Origin: Halopelagius inordinatus | GTDB lineage: Archaea > Halobacteriota > Halobacteria > Halobacteriales > Haloferacaceae | Direction of reading: 5' to 3' | DNA: 64,000 nt | Assembly (NCBI RefSeq): GCF_900113245.1 | Contig: NZ_FOOQ01000008.1 | Coordinates: 1-64,000 of the forward strand | Shown: positions 16,418-42,459 of the stretch, in pieces | How positions within the stretch are numbered: the stretch's first letter is position 1 | How the letters are laid out: the number at the start of each line of letters is the position of its first letter | Position numbers and translations under genes: made by a program | The notes under the pieces: model-generated | Told to the model about the DNA's origin: nothing | What the model saw: the letters and a program-made list of their open reading frames with translations, nothing else | Databases searched by the model: none

Positions 16418-16840
16418 TCACCGGTCGGGGTTTCGACGGACCGACGACCCGAGTTCCTCGACGTCGTCGGACCGCATCTGGCGGCCCGTCCGGCCGTCTC
16501 CCGCGGCGTCGCCGAGGGCCGCCCTGAACGCGCGTTCGGCCCGGTGGAGGCCACGCCCCGCCTCCGTCGCGGCGAATCGGTCGTTCTCGCGTTTCGCGAC
16601 CACGCCCGCGTCGAGTAACGGCGGAAGGTGGCGGTGGTGGAGGGCTACCTCCGCCTCGTCGACCGGTCGGTCGGAGTGGTCGTCCGGGGACGCCCCGTCG
16701 TCTCTCGTCCGCGTGACCACGCGACGAGCGAGTTCCCGCCGCGTCAACGGACGGTCCGAGTCGGCCAGAACCGCGAGGACGTCGCGCCGCCTGTCGGCCG
16801 CGAGCAGTCTGTGGGGACTTTCGGCTGTGGAGGGGACCAT
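16418..16840 (-). CDS. Winged-helix protein, DUF7344-like
   Basis: A 140-residue predicted DNA-binding protein with one winged-helix domain: LLAADRRRDVLAVLADSDRPLTRRELARRV, then VALHHRHLPPLLDAGVVAKR and the wing ENDRFAAT. About 40 charged residues follow with no fold seen. It is related in pattern to the protein at 1391-1735 (LHHRHLPPLLDAGV against LHHHHLPKLDAAGV). A TATA-like AAACTAAACG element on this strand lies at about 16866-16876, close to 30 nt upstream of the ATG at 16840. It is in the same orientation as uvrC, 95 bp away, but a regulatory link is not supported. Confidence 0.78.
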   Translation of the reverse strand: MVPSTAESPHRLLAADRRRDVLAVLADSDRPLTRRELARRVVTRTRDDGASPDDHSDRPVDEAEVALHHRHLPPLLDAGVVAKRENDRFAATEAGRGLHRAERAFRAALGDAAGDGRTGRQMRSDDVEELGSSVRRNPDR

Positions 16841-16961
16841 TTGCTGTCTGTCTATCCCGGTCGACGTTTAGTTTTTGCGCACCCGTGTCGGGTCGTTCAG
16901 GGGTTCCAACACGTCGCCGTCGGTCGGTAGCTACAAGCGGCGTCTGGCCGAACGCCGACGC

Positions 16962-36830: not shown

Positions 36831-37556
36831 ATGAGCGACGCGTTTCGGACCTTCGAAGTCGTCCCCGCAGTCGACATGCAGGACGGGGAAGTGGTGCAGT
36901 TGGTGCAGGGCGAACGCGGCACCGAACGACGGTACGGCGACCCGGTCGAGGCGGCCGAACGCTGGGTCGGCGAAGGCGCGGAGACGCTCCACCTCGTCGA
37001 CTTAGACGGGGCGTTCGAGGGCGACCGCAAGAACGCCGACGCGGTGGAAGCGGTCGTCGACGCGGTGGACGTGCCGGTCCAACTCGGCGGCGGCATCCGA
37101 ACCGCCGCGGACGCGGCCGACCTCCTCGAACGGGGCGTCGAACGCGTCATCCTCGGCACCGCGGCGGTGGAGAACCCCGAGTTGGTCGAAGAGATAAGCG
37201 CGGAGTATCCCGGCCGCGTGATGGTGAGTCTCGACGCGAGAGACGGCGAAGTGCTCGTCTCGGGGTGGACAGAGAGCACCGGCCTCGACCCCGCGGAGGC
37301 CGCCGCCCGGTACGAGGAACTCGGCGCGGGCGCGATTCTGTTCACCGACGTGGACGTGGAAGGCCAGATGGAAGGCGTCCAGACGGACGTGACGAAACGC
37401 GTCGTCGACGCGGTGGACGTGCCGGTGGTCGCGTCCGGCGGCGTCGCCTCTCTCGACGACGTGCGCGCACTCCGAGACGCCGGGGCCGCCGCCGTCGTCG
37501 TCGGAACGGCGCTGTACGAGGGGACGTTCACGCTCGAAGACGCCAGACGCGTCTGA
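36831..37556 (+). CDS. hisA: Phosphoribosylformimino-AICAR-phosphate isomerase (HisA)
   Basis: A 241-residue (beta/alpha)8 barrel catalysing the Amadori rearrangement of ProFAR to PRFAR in histidine biosynthesis. Catalytic acid/base aspartates sit in VVPAVDMQDGEVVQLVQG (strand 1) and ILFTDVDVEGQMEG (strand 5). The two phosphate sites are QLGGGIRT and ASGGVASLDD/VVVGTALYEG. The start MSDAFRTFEVVPAVDM at 36831 follows a TATA box 28 nt upstream. Monocistronic, convergent with the DUF5305 gene. Confidence 0.96.
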   Translation: MSDAFRTFEVVPAVDMQDGEVVQLVQGERGTERRYGDPVEAAERWVGEGAETLHLVDLDGAFEGDRKNADAVEAVVDAVDVPVQLGGGIRTAADAADLLERGVERVILGTAAVENPELVEEISAEYPGRVMVSLDARDGEVLVSGWTESTGLDPAEAAARYEELGAGAILFTDVDVEGQMEGVQTDVTKRVVDAVDVPVVASGGVASLDDVRALRDAGAAAVVVGTALYEGTFTLEDARRV

Positions 37557-37569
37557 GCGGACGACCGAC

Positions 37570-38766
37570 CTACTCGCCGGTCGGCGCGTCTCCCGCGTCC
37601 GGTCCGCTTCGGCCGTCCGCGGCGTCTCCGTCGCCGCCGTCTTCTAGCTCCCCGTCGTAGGTGAACGCGGTAGCGTCCGCGCTCTGCCCGACCGGTGCGT
37701 CCGTCGGCGGCGAGTACGAGTAGAGGTGCTCGCCGTGGACGACGTAGTACGTCCCGTCGTCGGGGTCTTCGACGACGCTGCTGTTCGTGTCGATGGCGAA
37801 ATCCACGAGTGCCGACAGCGACTCGGCCTCCGCGCGCGGGCGGTCGAACGTCGACGGCGGGAGGCGAATGGGGTGTATCCACTCGTCGAACTCGGACCGA
37901 GCCTCGTCGAACGCGAGGCGTTCTCGCTCTGCCTCCGTAAGCGTCGAGAGGCGACCGCTCCGACGCGCCCACAGGAGGCCGACCGCCCCGCCGAGACCGG
38001 AGAAGAGCAGTAGCGGCCCGCCTATCCGTCGGATAGGCCCGTACTGGTTGGTGACGGTGACCGTCCGAGTCGAGGTGTGCGGGTCGGTCACGACGCCGGG
38101 GTCCTCGACGGTGTACGCGGTGCCCAACCCGACCGGCAGTACGTATCTCTCCGTTCGTTCGACGGACTCGCCGTTCACCGTCCCCGAGAGCGAAACGGTG
38201 ACGCGGACGAGAGCCTCGGTCTCTCCCAACGAGGCCCCGAGGTCCGATTCGATTCGTTCCGTCTCGTTGGCGAGGGCTCTCGCGTCGAACGAGAACGGGA
38301 CGCGGACGGATTCGCCCGGTTCGACGCCGCTCTCTGTCATCTCGCCCGCGTCTCGCGTCCTCTGCCAGTGTCGGGTCCGGACCGCGCCGGTCTGATTCCG
38401 CTCGACGGACCGGAGGACGATATCGGCGTCCGTGCCGATACTCAACGACCCGCCTTCGCTCGCGGTGTATCCGTAGGTGAAGTTCCCGTCCAGTACCGGT
38501 GCGACGGTCCCGAAGTACGCCGACCGGTTCTCGAGCGTCGTCCCGACGGGAAACACCGAGTTCGGCTCTCTGACCGTCGCCGCGTGCCCGAACTCTGCGG
38601 TCGTCTCCCACGACGCCCCCGCCCGTTCCTCGGTGTGCGCCCCCGGTTCGACGTACGCCGTGTAGGCGAGTCCACCACCGACGGCGGCGAGGACGAGAAA
38701 GCAGGCGACGACGACCGCGACGTTGCCAGCCACCGTCTCTCGTGCTCGAAGCGTCCACGTAGCCAT
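37570..38766 (-). CDS. DUF5305 membrane protein
   Basis: A 398-residue protein with one N-terminal span (VAVVVACFLVLAAVGGGLAYTAYV), an extracytoplasmic beta-rich domain of about 170 residues containing NGNFTYGYTASEGG-like and PFSFDARALANETERIE phrases, a second span (IGGPLLLFSGLGGAVGLLW) and a cytoplasmic domain of about 130 residues (EFDEWIHPIRLPPSTF...YYVVHGEHLYSYSP). This is the DUF5305 architecture. The family is known to me only from haloarchaeal gene clusters that include SipW-type signal peptidases, as here. It may be an assembly or anchoring component for the camelysin-like protein. It has its own TATA-like promoter with a palindrome (38796-38809). Confidence 0.82.
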   Translation of the reverse strand: MATWTLRARETVAGNVAVVVACFLVLAAVGGGLAYTAYVEPGAHTEERAGASWETTAEFGHAATVREPNSVFPVGTTLENRSAYFGTVAPVLDGNFTYGYTASEGGSLSIGTDADIVLRSVERNQTGAVRTRHWQRTRDAGEMTESGVEPGESVRVPFSFDARALANETERIESDLGASLGETEALVRVTVSLSGTVNGESVERTERYVLPVGLGTAYTVEDPGVVTDPHTSTRTVTVTNQYGPIRRIGGPLLLFSGLGGAVGLLWARRSGRLSTLTEAERERLAFDEARSEFDEWIHPIRLPPSTFDRPRAEAESLSALVDFAIDTNSSVVEDPDDGTYYVVHGEHLYSYSPPTDAPVGQSADATAFTYDGELEDGGDGDAADGRSGPDAGDAPTGE

Positions 38767-38787
38767 TACCCTCTCTCCAAGACGTAT

Positions 38788-38809
38788 CTAAATAGTAACT
38801 AGTCAGTTA
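38788..38809 (-). promoter_or_regulatory. Promoter and palindrome of DUF5305 gene
   Basis: On the minus strand a TATA-like ACTATTTAG (about 38788-38797) lies 22-31 nt before the ATG at 38766. It overlaps the inverted repeat TAACT-GACT-AGTTA (38796-38809). The arrangement suits a regulator that competes with TBP; function inferred. Confidence 0.4.
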
Positions 38810-38879
38810 ACGATACTATACATCTTTAACGACCGGTTCAGGGTTCGAACGCCGCCGTATCGGGCCGACCGTTCGCCGC

Positions 38880-40052
38880 TCAGGAGTTCCGGTCGCGGAG
38901 CGTTCGCTTCAGACGGGTAGTCGGCGAGATATCGCGTCCCCGACTTCGGGTTCGGACCCGCCCCGTACCGACGAGAGCGATGCTGACGGCGTAGAACAGT
39001 CCGCCGAGTAGCGAGTCGATGACGACGACGGGCGCCCACGGGTGAAGCTGATAGAGTCCCCGAGTAACGGGAGTCGGGAGGACGGCGAGGTAGCGGTGTT
39101 CGGTGAGGAACATCCGGTAGTACCCCGTCTCCGGAGGAACAGAGAGCGTGACGGTGGCGTCGGCGGTGCTTCCGGGCCCCACGGACAGTTCGCCCGGTTC
39201 GACGGCGACGCCGTCGCTTCGCGGTTCGAGGAAGACGTCGACGGGGACGAGGCCGCCGTTGCCGACGGGGTACGCGACGTCGGACGACTCGCCCGCCGGA
39301 ATCACCGTCGGTCGGTCTGACTCGAACTCCGCGCTGACGACGCCGTACTCCTGCGTCCCGGCGGGACCGACCATCGCCGCCGTCGCGCCCGCGACGAGGA
39401 GGAGTGCGAACCCGGCGGCTATCAACCGCACGTCCGTGCCCGTCTCTCGGTTTCGGGACGTCTCGCGACTTCGACGCTCTCTGTTCTCCTCGCGTAGTTC
39501 GCCGAGGACGTAGTACACCATCGTCGCGCCGAAGAAGAGGTAGGCGAGTCCCTGCGGACCGAGGAACGCTCTCGACCCGAAGAGTGCGGCGACGTGTCGC
39601 TGAACGACGGAGACCGCCCCCTGTACGGCGAGCACTGCGGTTCCGAGTTCGGGAATCACGACCACCTCGCCGCCGACCTGTAGCGCCTGCGCGACGACTT
39701 GAGCGTCTTGCACCGGGGGTTCGGAGCCACCCTGGTCGGTGAACGGGTTGGCGTCGCCTCTCGTGACGTAGCCCCGGTCGGTCTCTTCGACGACGCGGTG
39801 CGTCGTCAGGTCGCCGCCGTGGAGTTCTTGCGCGCGGAAGACGACCACGTCACCCTCCTCTACGGGACCGACGAGGTCCGCGGGGACGGCGACGAATCCG
39901 TCGCCGGGTTCCATCGTCGGGGCCATGCTTCCGGTTTCGACGAAACCGAGCAACACGGGGTAGCCGAGGGCTTGGCCCGCTAAGAGGGAGACGACGGCGA
40001 GTAGGACGACGAGTTCGAGTGCGCGTACGAGTGCGGTTTGTGCGTTTTCCAT
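38880..40052 (-). CDS. SipW-type signal peptidase I with extracellular C-terminal domain
   Basis: A 390-residue S26B (archaeal/ER-type) signal peptidase. The catalytic Ser is S42 in FVETGSMAPTMEPGD, and the catalytic His is H85 in LTTHRVVEE, replacing the Lys of bacterial enzymes. The acidic residue is in YVTRGDANPFTD (D100 or D106). Beyond the ~190-residue peptidase there are further spans (LAYLFFGATMVYYVLG; VRLIAAGFALLLVAGATAAM). An extracellular beta-sandwich of about 110 residues follows (TVIPAGESSDVAYPVGNGGL, DATVTLSVPPETGYYRMF), then a final span and a basic tail. SipW-type enzymes in Bacillus process the TasA/camelysin fibre proteins; the camelysin-like gene lies directly upstream. Confidence 0.9.
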   Translation of the reverse strand: MENAQTALVRALELVVLLAVVSLLAGQALGYPVLLGFVETGSMAPTMEPGDGFVAVPADLVGPVEEGDVVVFRAQELHGGDLTTHRVVEETDRGYVTRGDANPFTDQGGSEPPVQDAQVVAQALQVGGEVVVIPELGTAVLAVQGAVSVVQRHVAALFGSRAFLGPQGLAYLFFGATMVYYVLGELREENRERRSRETSRNRETGTDVRLIAAGFALLLVAGATAAMVGPAGTQEYGVVSAEFESDRPTVIPAGESSDVAYPVGNGGLVPVDVFLEPRSDGVAVEPGELSVGPGSTADATVTLSVPPETGYYRMFLTEHRYLAVLPTPVTRGLYQLHPWAPVVVIDSLLGGLFYAVSIALVGTGRVRTRSRGRDISPTTRLKRTLRDRNS

Positions 40053-40110
40053 CTCTCTCGGCTACCTTCTCGGTACGGTGAAAGTCCACATAGTTACCCA
40101 CTCCGTTCGA

Positions 40111-40124
40111 CACCGCGAATAATA
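40111..40124 (-). promoter_or_regulatory. TATA-like element upstream of signal peptidase gene
   Basis: On the minus strand CATATTATTCGCGG lies about 60-70 nt upstream of the ATG at 40052. It would give a leader of some 40 nt, unlike the leaderless genes around it. The rest of the 196-bp gap shows nothing else. Confidence 0.35.
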
Positions 40125-40248
40125 TGAAGTCCGCGTGACGCGTTGCCTGAGCGCCACGTGCGGTTCTCGTTCTCGGACGGACCCGAGTCGCTTCGGTCCC
40201 CCGGTACCGACCCCGGTGGAGCGAGTGACGTACGCCCTCTCTGACCGA

Positions 40249-40920
40249 TTACGGTCCCTTTCCGGCGTCGACGTAGTCTTGCGAGTAGGCCAGAACGACT
40301 ATCTTTCCGGTGATATCGAGGTCCGACGGGTCCGCCGGCGTATCGAAGAGATACCAGTCCGGACTGAGGGATTCGCCGACGTCGAGGACGTGGTCGTAGC
40401 TACCGGGGTCGAGCGACGGGCGGTTAGTTCCGTTCGAACTCGACGACCGGTATGCGCTCGGAAGCGCCTTCGGACCGTTGATATCCTCCGTGTCGTTGTC
40501 GTCGTCGTACCAGCCGTTCTGGTTCAGTCCCGCGTCGGCGAGCACGTTGTACATGCCGTCCGAACCGGCCTTCGATGCCACCTCCGCCGGTCCGTTACCT
40601 TGCTGGAACGCGTAACTCTGGCTCCCTTCGTCGATGAAGATGCCGACCGGGTCGGTCCCTTGGTTCTTGATGCCGAACACGTCCGTGATCTCTATGTCCG
40701 CGTTCGCGTTCAGCCCGTCGAACTCGATTTCGAGGACGCCGTTACCGTTGTAACTCGCGTACTTCGAACCGGTCAGCTTGAGGTTCGCGGCCGCGTCACC
40801 GGCAGCACTGACAGAAACGCTTCGCGTAGCACTGGTCTGACTGAACGCACCAGTTCCCATTGCGGCCGCCCCACCGGCGGCGAGCGATCCGATCGTCGCG
40901 AGATATTTTCGTCGTTGCAT
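40249..40920 (-). CDS. Camelysin/TasA-like exported protein (DUF1102)
   Basis: A 223-residue exported protein starting MQRRKYLATIGSLAAGGAAA, a Tat-type signal (RRKYL). It is followed by GTGAFSQTSATRSVSVSAAG and then ANLKLTGS. This closely parallels the camelysin/TasA N-terminus (AFSDTE...F..GTLDL), where SipW cleaves. The mature protein is beta-rich with long Gly/Asn/Asp loops (SKYASYNGNGVLEIEFDGLN; DNDTEDINGP) and ends in ITGKIVVLAYSQDYVDAGKG. No cysteines were seen. In Bacillus such proteins polymerise into biofilm-matrix fibres. The gene is immediately upstream of the SipW-type peptidase on the same strand, which strengthens the assignment. Polymerisation is inferred. Confidence 0.82.
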   Translation of the reverse strand: MQRRKYLATIGSLAAGGAAAMGTGAFSQTSATRSVSVSAAGDAAANLKLTGSKYASYNGNGVLEIEFDGLNANADIEITDVFGIKNQGTDPVGIFIDEGSQSYAFQQGNGPAEVASKAGSDGMYNVLADAGLNQNGWYDDDNDTEDINGPKALPSAYRSSSSNGTNRPSLDPGSYDHVLDVGESLSPDWYLFDTPADPSDLDITGKIVVLAYSQDYVDAGKGP

Positions 40921-41072
40921 AGTTGGTCTCTCCGTCGGCGCCGCGGCCCGTCACGACCCGCGACGCACACTTACCACACGGACCGACAGCCCCATTGTTA
41001 CAGTTCGGAGAGATGCTGACGAACGAACCCCGTCGCCGACGCAATCCGACCTAGCGGTGGACGCAACGGGTC

Positions 41073-41099
41073 GTTTGCGCCGACACGGTCGGCACAAAC
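41073..41099. promoter_or_regulatory. Long imperfect palindrome in divergent promoter region
   Basis: GTTTGCGCCGAC-ACG-GTCGGCACAAAC: 12-bp arms with one mismatch and a three-base centre. It sits in the 349-bp divergent gap (40921-41269), directly downstream of a TATA-like CCCTAAACG (about 41105-41113, minus strand), so it overlaps or follows the probable start of transcription of the camelysin-like gene. It is either an operator or a leader-RNA hairpin. The plus-strand promoter for 41270 is probably among TTTATCATCG (41166) and the AT-rich 41201-41230; nothing else was recognised in the gap. Confidence 0.45.
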
Positions 41100-41269
41100 C
41101 CTCGTTTAGGGTCCCTTCACCACTGATTAAACTTCTGGCCGGTGGCCGCCGGCGTATACCGACAGTTTATCATCGACCTTACTGCTCTTGTTCCGGTCGG
41201 TAACTAAGTCATCAAAAAGTTGTTATTCTACGTGAACGATGGACAGGTGGCTCTACGGGGGGGTCGACG

Positions 41270-41905
41270 GTGAGTGAGGTGTCCTCGCTCGGAGGCTCCG
41301 CAGCAGAGACTGAGGTATCGGCGGAGGACGACCAGTGGGGTTCTCGGCCGCCGACGGGAGCGGAACTCTCTCACGACGCGTTCTTCGAGGCGCTGAGCAA
41401 CCGTCGGCGGCGATACGTGCTTCACTACCTGAAACAGCGAACCGGCGAAGACACCGTCGATTTAGCCGACCTCTCGGCGCAGATTACCGCGTGGGAACGG
41501 GGCGTCGAGGCGGACGGCCTCTCGTACGCCGACCGAAAGAGCGTCCACACGTCGCTGTCGCAGTTCCACGTGCCGAAACTCGACGAACTCGGGTTCGTCC
41601 GGTACGACCGCGAGCGGAGTTCGGTCGAACTCACCGACCGGGCGGCGGACGTGAACGTGTACTTGGAGACGGTCTCCGGACGAGAGTTGCCGTGGGGACC
41701 GTATCTGCTCTTTCTCGCGTCCGTGCTCTCCGCCGCGGTTCTCGGGTCGATGGCTGGCGTTCCGGTCTTGACCGGGCTTCCGAAGGAGTCGCTTCTGGTG
41801 TTCGTCGCCGTGACGTTCCTCTCGTCCAGCGCCGTCTTCACCTACGACACGTGGACGAAGATGCGCGTCGGCGCGGACGGCCCGCCGCCGGAGGTGGACG
41901 GATGA
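41270..41905 (+). CDS. Membrane-bound winged-helix protein, DUF7344-like
   Basis: A 211-residue protein with a DUF7344-like winged helix: HDAFFEALSNRRRRYVLHYL, an extended middle helix, then SVHTSLSQFHVPKLDELGFV and the wing RYDRERSSVELT. Two C-terminal membrane spans follow (GPYLLFLASVLSAAVLGSMA; LLVFVAVTFLSSSAVFTYDT). A DNA-binding domain tethered to the membrane suggests sensing at the envelope. It is coupled by ATGA to a secreted protein and is divergent from the camelysin-like gene, so it is a good candidate for that cluster's regulator. The GTG start at 41270 is probable; a 12-codon ORF (ATG 41239 to TGA 41277) overlaps it and may couple its translation. Confidence 0.82.
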   Translation: MSEVSSLGGSAAETEVSAEDDQWGSRPPTGAELSHDAFFEALSNRRRRYVLHYLKQRTGEDTVDLADLSAQITAWERGVEADGLSYADRKSVHTSLSQFHVPKLDELGFVRYDRERSSVELTDRAADVNVYLETVSGRELPWGPYLLFLASVLSAAVLGSMAGVPVLTGLPKESLLVFVAVTFLSSSAVFTYDTWTKMRVGADGPPPEVDG

Positions 41906-42459
41906 GGCGGGCTCTGCTCGTTCTCGCCGCCGTTGCGGTTCTCCTGACGACGTCGCTTCCCACGGGTGGATTCACCGCCGCACAGGCCGACCGAAGCGTC
42001 TCCGTGGCCGTCGTGGACGACTCGAAGGCTCTCCTCGGTGTCGAACTGCGGGCAGAGCGACGACCGCCCGAATCCGCACCGAACTCCGAGGCGGCGACCG
42101 GAGCGACGACGGCCACCGAACGTCGACCGAAAGCCGGAACGGCCGCGGCCGGGCGGGCAACCGCTTCGCCCGCCGGTCGAGAGGGGCCCTCCGATGCACC
42201 GCGGACGGTACTCTCCGTGACGCTTCGGAACCGCCTCCCGGACGCCGACAGCCTCCGCGCTTCCGTCCACCTCGTAGACGACGGGGTCCGTTCCGACGCC
42301 TCGACGTCGCTGGTCGTGCGCGACGAGGCGACGACTCGGCTCTCGAACGTCGACTGCGAGGATACGGTCCGTATCGTCGCTCGGGCGGGGGGGACGCGCA
42401 TCGAACTCGACCGAGAGGTTCCCTGCGAGAGAGGACGCTCGATAGCGCCGGGGCGGTGA
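41902..42459 (+). CDS. Secreted protein coupled to membrane winged-helix protein
   Basis: A 185-residue exported protein. Residues 1-30 (MRRALLVLAAVAVLLTTSLP start) are a Sec signal. Next come a short strand (RSVSVAVVDDSKALLGVELR), a Pro/Ala/Arg/Thr-rich disordered stretch of about 60 residues, and a small beta domain (TVLSVTLRNRLPDADSLRAS...TTRLSNVDCEDTVRIVAR) with a cysteine pair (VDCEDT, VPCERG) that could form a disulfide. The opening SVSVAVVDDSKALLGVEL resembles the start of mature camelysin-type proteins after cleavage, though weakly. The start overlaps the stop of the winged-helix gene (ATGA), implying a joint function. No family recognised. Confidence 0.72.
   Translation: MRRALLVLAAVAVLLTTSLPTGGFTAAQADRSVSVAVVDDSKALLGVELRAERRPPESAPNSEAATGATTATERRPKAGTAAAGRATASPAGREGPSDAPRTVLSVTLRNRLPDADSLRASVHLVDDGVRSDASTSLVVRDEATTRLSNVDCEDTVRIVARAGGTRIELDREVPCERGRSIAPGR

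Follow-up and report, generated by a model that had tools for sequence, protein, structure and literature searches.

A compact locus of the Tafi/Taf pilus kind predicted in the haloarchaeon Halopelagius inordinatus

In Bacillus the signal peptidase SipW cleaves both TasA and TapA, and TasA polymerises through an N-terminal donor strand (PMC9674648); TapA shares this N-terminal strand and initiates the fibre, with AFNDI or AFHDI at the mature starts of TasA and TapA (PMC10151520). Among archaea, the bundling pili AbpA of Pyrobaculum calidifontis are cited in PMC9715654 and PMC10151520 as a donor-strand fibre related to TasA, and the Sulfolobus thread filament (Saci_0406) is a further donor-strand fibre, for which processing by signal peptidase I has been proposed (PMC9715654). 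From haloarchaea there is the entry PDB 9p0a of 2025, entitled 'Structure of Natrinema sp. J7-2 Tafi pilus', together with the NCBIfam models TafA, TafC, TafE and TafF for Taf fimbriae. A first-pass annotation of the DNA studied here had outlined a TasA/AbpA-like fibre cluster and implied that such archaeal pili are restricted to another phylum. The outline is right. The restriction does not hold, the Natrinema structure and the Taf models being haloarchaeal, and with it falls the claim of novelty, as the pilus kind is already known in haloarchaea.

The window, that is, the whole stretch of DNA analysed, comprises the first 64,000 nucleotides of contig 8 of the 3.53 Mb genome of Halopelagius inordinatus. 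Five intact open reading frames stand together in it. On the minus strand a Taf-type pilin gene (40249..40920) is followed by that of an S26 signal peptidase of the Ser-His (SipW/archaeal) kind (38880..40052) and then by that of a DUF5305 membrane protein (37570..38766), while on the opposite strand, beyond the divergent promoter region (40921..41269) that separates pilin and regulator, lie the genes of a DUF7344 protein, which we infer to be a membrane-tethered winged-helix regulator (41270..41905), and of a secreted protein that resembles the N-terminus of TafC (41902..42459), the latter two overlapping by 4 bp. We consider it highly probable that this is a compact haloarchaeal pilus locus of the Tafi/Taf type, making a thin fibre related to the TasA-type fibres by which bacterial biofilms are held together.

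The proposal that the five genes belong together is borne out, and they form one unit. In a DNA search of one congener genome approximately 37,536-42,459 is absent as a single block with the hisA/hisB flanks intact; hisA is followed there by a small membrane gene and hisB in the same order, with 286 bp separating the two matches, and neither a DUF5305 nor a TafE-like match is present anywhere in that genome. There are three S26 peptidase matches in the H. inordinatus genome and two in the congener, so that the extra peptidase travels with the cluster. Loss of the whole block, taken with the repetition of the grouping in 57 of 64 full-length loci discussed below, argues that the grouping is not due to chance.

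A bona fide taf cluster (558 bits for TafC, 257 for TafA and 218 for TafE, with a TafF-like gene present) shares its peptidase, DUF7344 and DUF5305 genes with the window locus, and a homologous pilin and a twin-arginine GTGAF signal are likewise common to the locus and to the Tafi pilus and Taf systems. The window locus differs in having one pilin, in that both of its Taf-type proteins fall below the model cut-offs, in a partner protein without LamG, and in that TafF was not found. From these sequence comparisons we place it within the Tafi/Taf kind, but not as an orthologous TafA/C/E/F set.

The 40249 product scores 61 bits (E 9.5e-17) with the TafE model and 34 bits (E 2.4e-8) with TafA, reaching neither of the equivalog cut-offs (155 and 190). 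The solved Tafi pilin, of which 173 of 215 residues were scored, lies under the TafE and TafA cut-offs as well, with 74 and 57 bits, so that the shortfall bars the names TafA and TafE and not the pilus type. By itself the protein matches PDB 9p0a over residues 1-96 (phmmer, E 8.3e-9) and a profile of 40 of its relatives does so over 174 positions (E 8.5e-32), pointing to a Taf-type pilin, the sole full-length one recovered in a search of its own genome. The protein had been described as camelysin-like DUF1102. A Pfam search of the 40249 product gave no DUF1102 (PF06510) match, and a direct assignment is ruled out at the Pfam level, while 19 of 40 pilin homologues do match, with E up to 0.1 and at best 2.4e-8; judged by these profiles the label is valid for the superfamily only and not for the 40249 product itself.

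The pilin model has a mean pLDDT of 60, with 100 residues below 50 and a better core at approximately 40-100 and 175-215; an N-terminal strand is predicted at 32-38, and residues 100-170, an insertion specific to the family, have no fold in the model. Structural re-alignment (VIA) of the core places AbpA (PDB 7ueg) in the top row with Z 6.7, rmsd 3.1 and 104 residues, and gives Z 6.0 over 107 residues for Tafi 9p0a, values of Z below 8 that can reflect a common arrangement and that are similar to those of unrelated Ig-like domains, so that the fold result does no more than agree with that from sequence. AbpA, from another archaeal phylum, has a similar beta-sandwich core but no sequence match with the pilin, and the Sulfolobus thread, alike as a donor-strand fibre with proposed signal peptidase I processing, was recovered neither by sequence nor by fold. 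TasA is not among the matches listed, whether by sequence or by Foldseek/VIA, and its absence from the fold list is no evidence of absence. The anticipated likeness to TasA and AbpA is thus found, at modest Z, for AbpA and for the Tafi pilus, the latter matched by sequence as well, and TasA does not appear among the rows listed.

The signal peptide of the pilin has an RRKYL motif and a weak hydrophobic stretch. Arg 3 and Arg 4 do not vary among the 40 pilins aligned, and behind them stand K and an aromatic or aliphatic residue; a strict twin-arginine motif is found in 164 of 218 Taf-like proteins. The signal is of the twin-arginine type, and export is probably by the Tat route. Mature TasA starts at A/F (PMC9674648, PMC10151520), like the F26 start proposed here. 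Since GTGAF is the signal-region consensus of the aligned Taf-like proteins and both TasA and TapA have 'AF..' starts, cleavage is more likely after GTGA and before F26, correcting the site given in the first-pass annotation and retaining its suggestion of a TasA-like mature N-terminus.

SipW is a Ser-His kind of S26 peptidase. The 38880 product scores 56 bits with TIGR02228, the archaeal S26 signal peptidase model, which is above the cut-off, and 31 bits with the SipW model NF046067, a weak similarity that does not reach the cut-off of 190. The Ser of TGSM, the His of THR and the Asp region GDANPFTD are invariant or nearly so among 14 peptidase relatives, and we predict a dedicated S26 peptidase of the Ser-His (SipW/archaeal) kind, in keeping with the SipW-type enzyme originally suggested. 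No solved relative was found by sequence. At its C-terminus the protein carries, fused to the peptidase, an external domain and additional TM segments, all kept in the family (window 38880-39400), the domain showing weak Cep192_D3/choice-of-anchor similarity and possibly serving as a built-in chaperone or docking domain. A plasmid peptidase of this family in Haloferax mediterranei (pHME505, L193:7920-9071) lacks annotated Taf neighbours on the side that the record covers, the other side being cut off by the start of the record.

The 41902 product carries a signal peptide, so that the earlier description of a secreted protein coupled to the regulator gene stands. It matches TafC (1.3e-6, positions 8-54 only) and TafE (1.4e-4), in each case below all Taf cut-offs, and its gene occupies the position of TafC in the bona fide taf cluster. 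Similarity to the pilin is confined to residues 18-45, where 12 of 28 are identical (pairwise E 0.002); for the mature parts alone the shuffle test is weak, 74 of 2000 shuffles reaching the score. A search of the 41902 product for a LamG domain, which the TafC of locus L112 has, gave none. No TafF match was obtained in the H. inordinatus genome, and the TafF model is silent in control genomes too, yet gives 368 bits for the L112 homologue. The sharing of a strand by the 41902 product and the pilin would mirror the relation between TapA and TasA, and by this analogy the 41902 product may be an initiator, cap or tip of the fibre. A fibre protein, a dedicated SipW-type peptidase and a second protein with a shared N-terminal strand would then be common to the locus and to the Bacillus TasA/camelysin system, whereas no direct sequence or structure match to TasA was found and the twin-arginine signal, DUF5305 and DUF7344 are features of the archaeal locus.

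The 37570 product is a DUF5305 protein (PF17231, 174 bits, E 2.8e-51), as had been annotated. Its AF2 model (pLDDT 90.5) has helices at 16-38 and 244-269 and a beta ectodomain at 43-239, which places an external beta-sandwich between two TM helices, the second of them leading into a cytosolic tail; the outward-facing side is deduced from the charges flanking the helices. Fold comparison returned common Ig-like matches only (top Z 8.6), with transglutaminase, RbmA and arrestin-like rows; these are generic and no function was drawn from them. We suggest that the protein is the base or assembly platform of the fibre.

The 41270 product belongs to DUF7344 (PF24035, E 6.4e-28) and has a hydrophobic C-terminal stretch at 140-193, probably a membrane segment, consistent with the divergent membrane-bound regulator proposed at the outset. 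Because no solved relative of DUF7344 was found by sequence, DNA binding is putative. Two more DUF7344-type ORFs are present in the window, at 1385-1732 and 16421-16867. In the divergent intergenic regions of relatives a 17-bp dyad, TTCAGG-N5-CCTGAA, occurs at 45 sites as against 1.2 in shuffles (up to 2 mismatches, N5 gap fixed, 65 non-redundant regions), and TTCAGGC is found at 1.45 per kb in these regions versus 0.08 per kb in the remainder of these loci. Stricter redundancy removal leaves 21 dyad sites in 49 regions, much of the signal coming from related species. Arrays of up to four dyads with a 32-33 bp spacing lie between the DUF7344 gene and the first Taf pilin gene in loci of Halorubrum, of Halobellus and of an uncultured archaeon (L136:1386-1402 and 1419-1435, and the intergenic regions of L151, L141, L153 and L162), which suggests a candidate operator. 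Scanned over the whole genome with two mismatches allowed, the dyad is no commoner than its reversed control, and so local enrichment alone is claimed. The intergenic region of the window does not contain this dyad; it has at 41073..41099 an inverted repeat of 12 bp with a 3-bp gap, GTTTGCGCCGAC/GTCGGCACAAAC, unlike the Halorubrum dyad and a putative operator in its own right.

The neighbours of the cluster are repeated across 40 same-family genomic regions, of which the majority had been picked around DUF5305 or Taf matches. A peptidase scan of named genomes gave 80 loci across the class Halobacteria, in genera that include Halorubrum, Halorussus, Salinigranum, Natrinema, Halobacterium and Haloarcula. 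For the full-length named loci (n=64), DUF5305 is present in 61, DUF7344 in 60, at least one Taf-like gene in all 64 and the complete set of partners in 57, as expected from the suggestion that gene order is conserved in relatives. DUF5305 occurs in 147 of 170 same-family genomes and TafE-like genes in 133; single-pilin layouts are found in further genera (e.g., L115, L119 and L120), and the pilin is 77% identical to its Salinigranum orthologue and 74% to that of a Haloarculaceae genome. The cluster is a member of a system widespread in haloarchaea and not a new one. In several other genera, too, a Taf cluster is found near hisA/hisB (L083, L090, L091, L110, L119 and L122), which disfavours a recent gain by insertion and makes loss in the congener the simpler explanation.

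The following sequence of events would account for these genes. The pre-pilin and the 41902 protein would be exported, probably by the twin-arginine route, and the dedicated peptidase would cut both signal peptides, freeing in the pilin the N-terminal beta strand F26SQTSATRSVSVSAAGD. Inserted into the next subunit, the freed strand would complete the beta-sandwich there, making pilins polymerise by donor-strand complementation, with the 41902 product, which has only strand and signal in common with the pilin, starting or capping the fibre in the manner of TapA. DUF5305 would hold the fibre at the membrane or help its assembly and the divergent DUF7344 membrane regulator would control transcription and may respond to the envelope in doing so. 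A more elaborate version, in which subunits cross the membrane folded (Tat), cleavage by the peptidase is the switch for polymerisation and the regulator couples assembly to its own promoter via the operator array, is conceivable although we regard it as doubtful.

Three other readings have to be weighed against a Tafi/Taf-type fibre. The product could be a non-fibrous surface or matrix protein, encoded by a reduced or decaying locus with a single pilin and neither TafF nor an adhesive TafC; one pilin and one short partner are indeed all that the genome has, there is no TafF match and no LamG in the 41902 product, and the block is missing from the congener. Yet all of the ORFs are intact, the pilin retains the high identities to its Salinigranum and Haloarculaceae orthologues given above and single-pilin layouts recur in other genera, so that we judge this reading to be decidedly improbable. 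Even less credible, to the point of being very nearly dismissed, is that 38880 encodes a second general signal peptidase that happens to adjoin an unrelated secreted protein and a regulator. It does score as a general archaeal signal peptidase I, and the Haloferax mediterranei plasmid copy lacks annotated Taf neighbours in view, but the genome has two further S26 genes outside the cluster, the congener lacks this third one together with the block, and the partners are kept in those 57 loci.

The remaining reading concerns the DUF7344 protein, whose winged-helix-like part might not bind DNA, the protein being an assembly or membrane partner and not the regulator of the operon. As no solved relative was found by sequence this has some appeal, but the gene is usually divergent to the pilins and the conserved dyads of relatives sit in precisely that intergenic region, and we consider it unlikely.

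Read as a Tafi/Taf-type system, the locus represents, with five genes and a single pilin, a pilus common in haloarchaea but studied in few of them, and it links two families of unknown function, DUF5305 and DUF7344, to pilus biogenesis. Being small, it is well suited to testing the export, cutting, start and anchoring of archaeal TasA-like fibres, with congeners that have or lack the block as a natural comparison pair. Inspection by eye of the Salinigranum salinum locus revealed a PIN-domain-like (VapC-like) ORF at L122:6525-6923 that separates the pilin orthologue from the peptidase.
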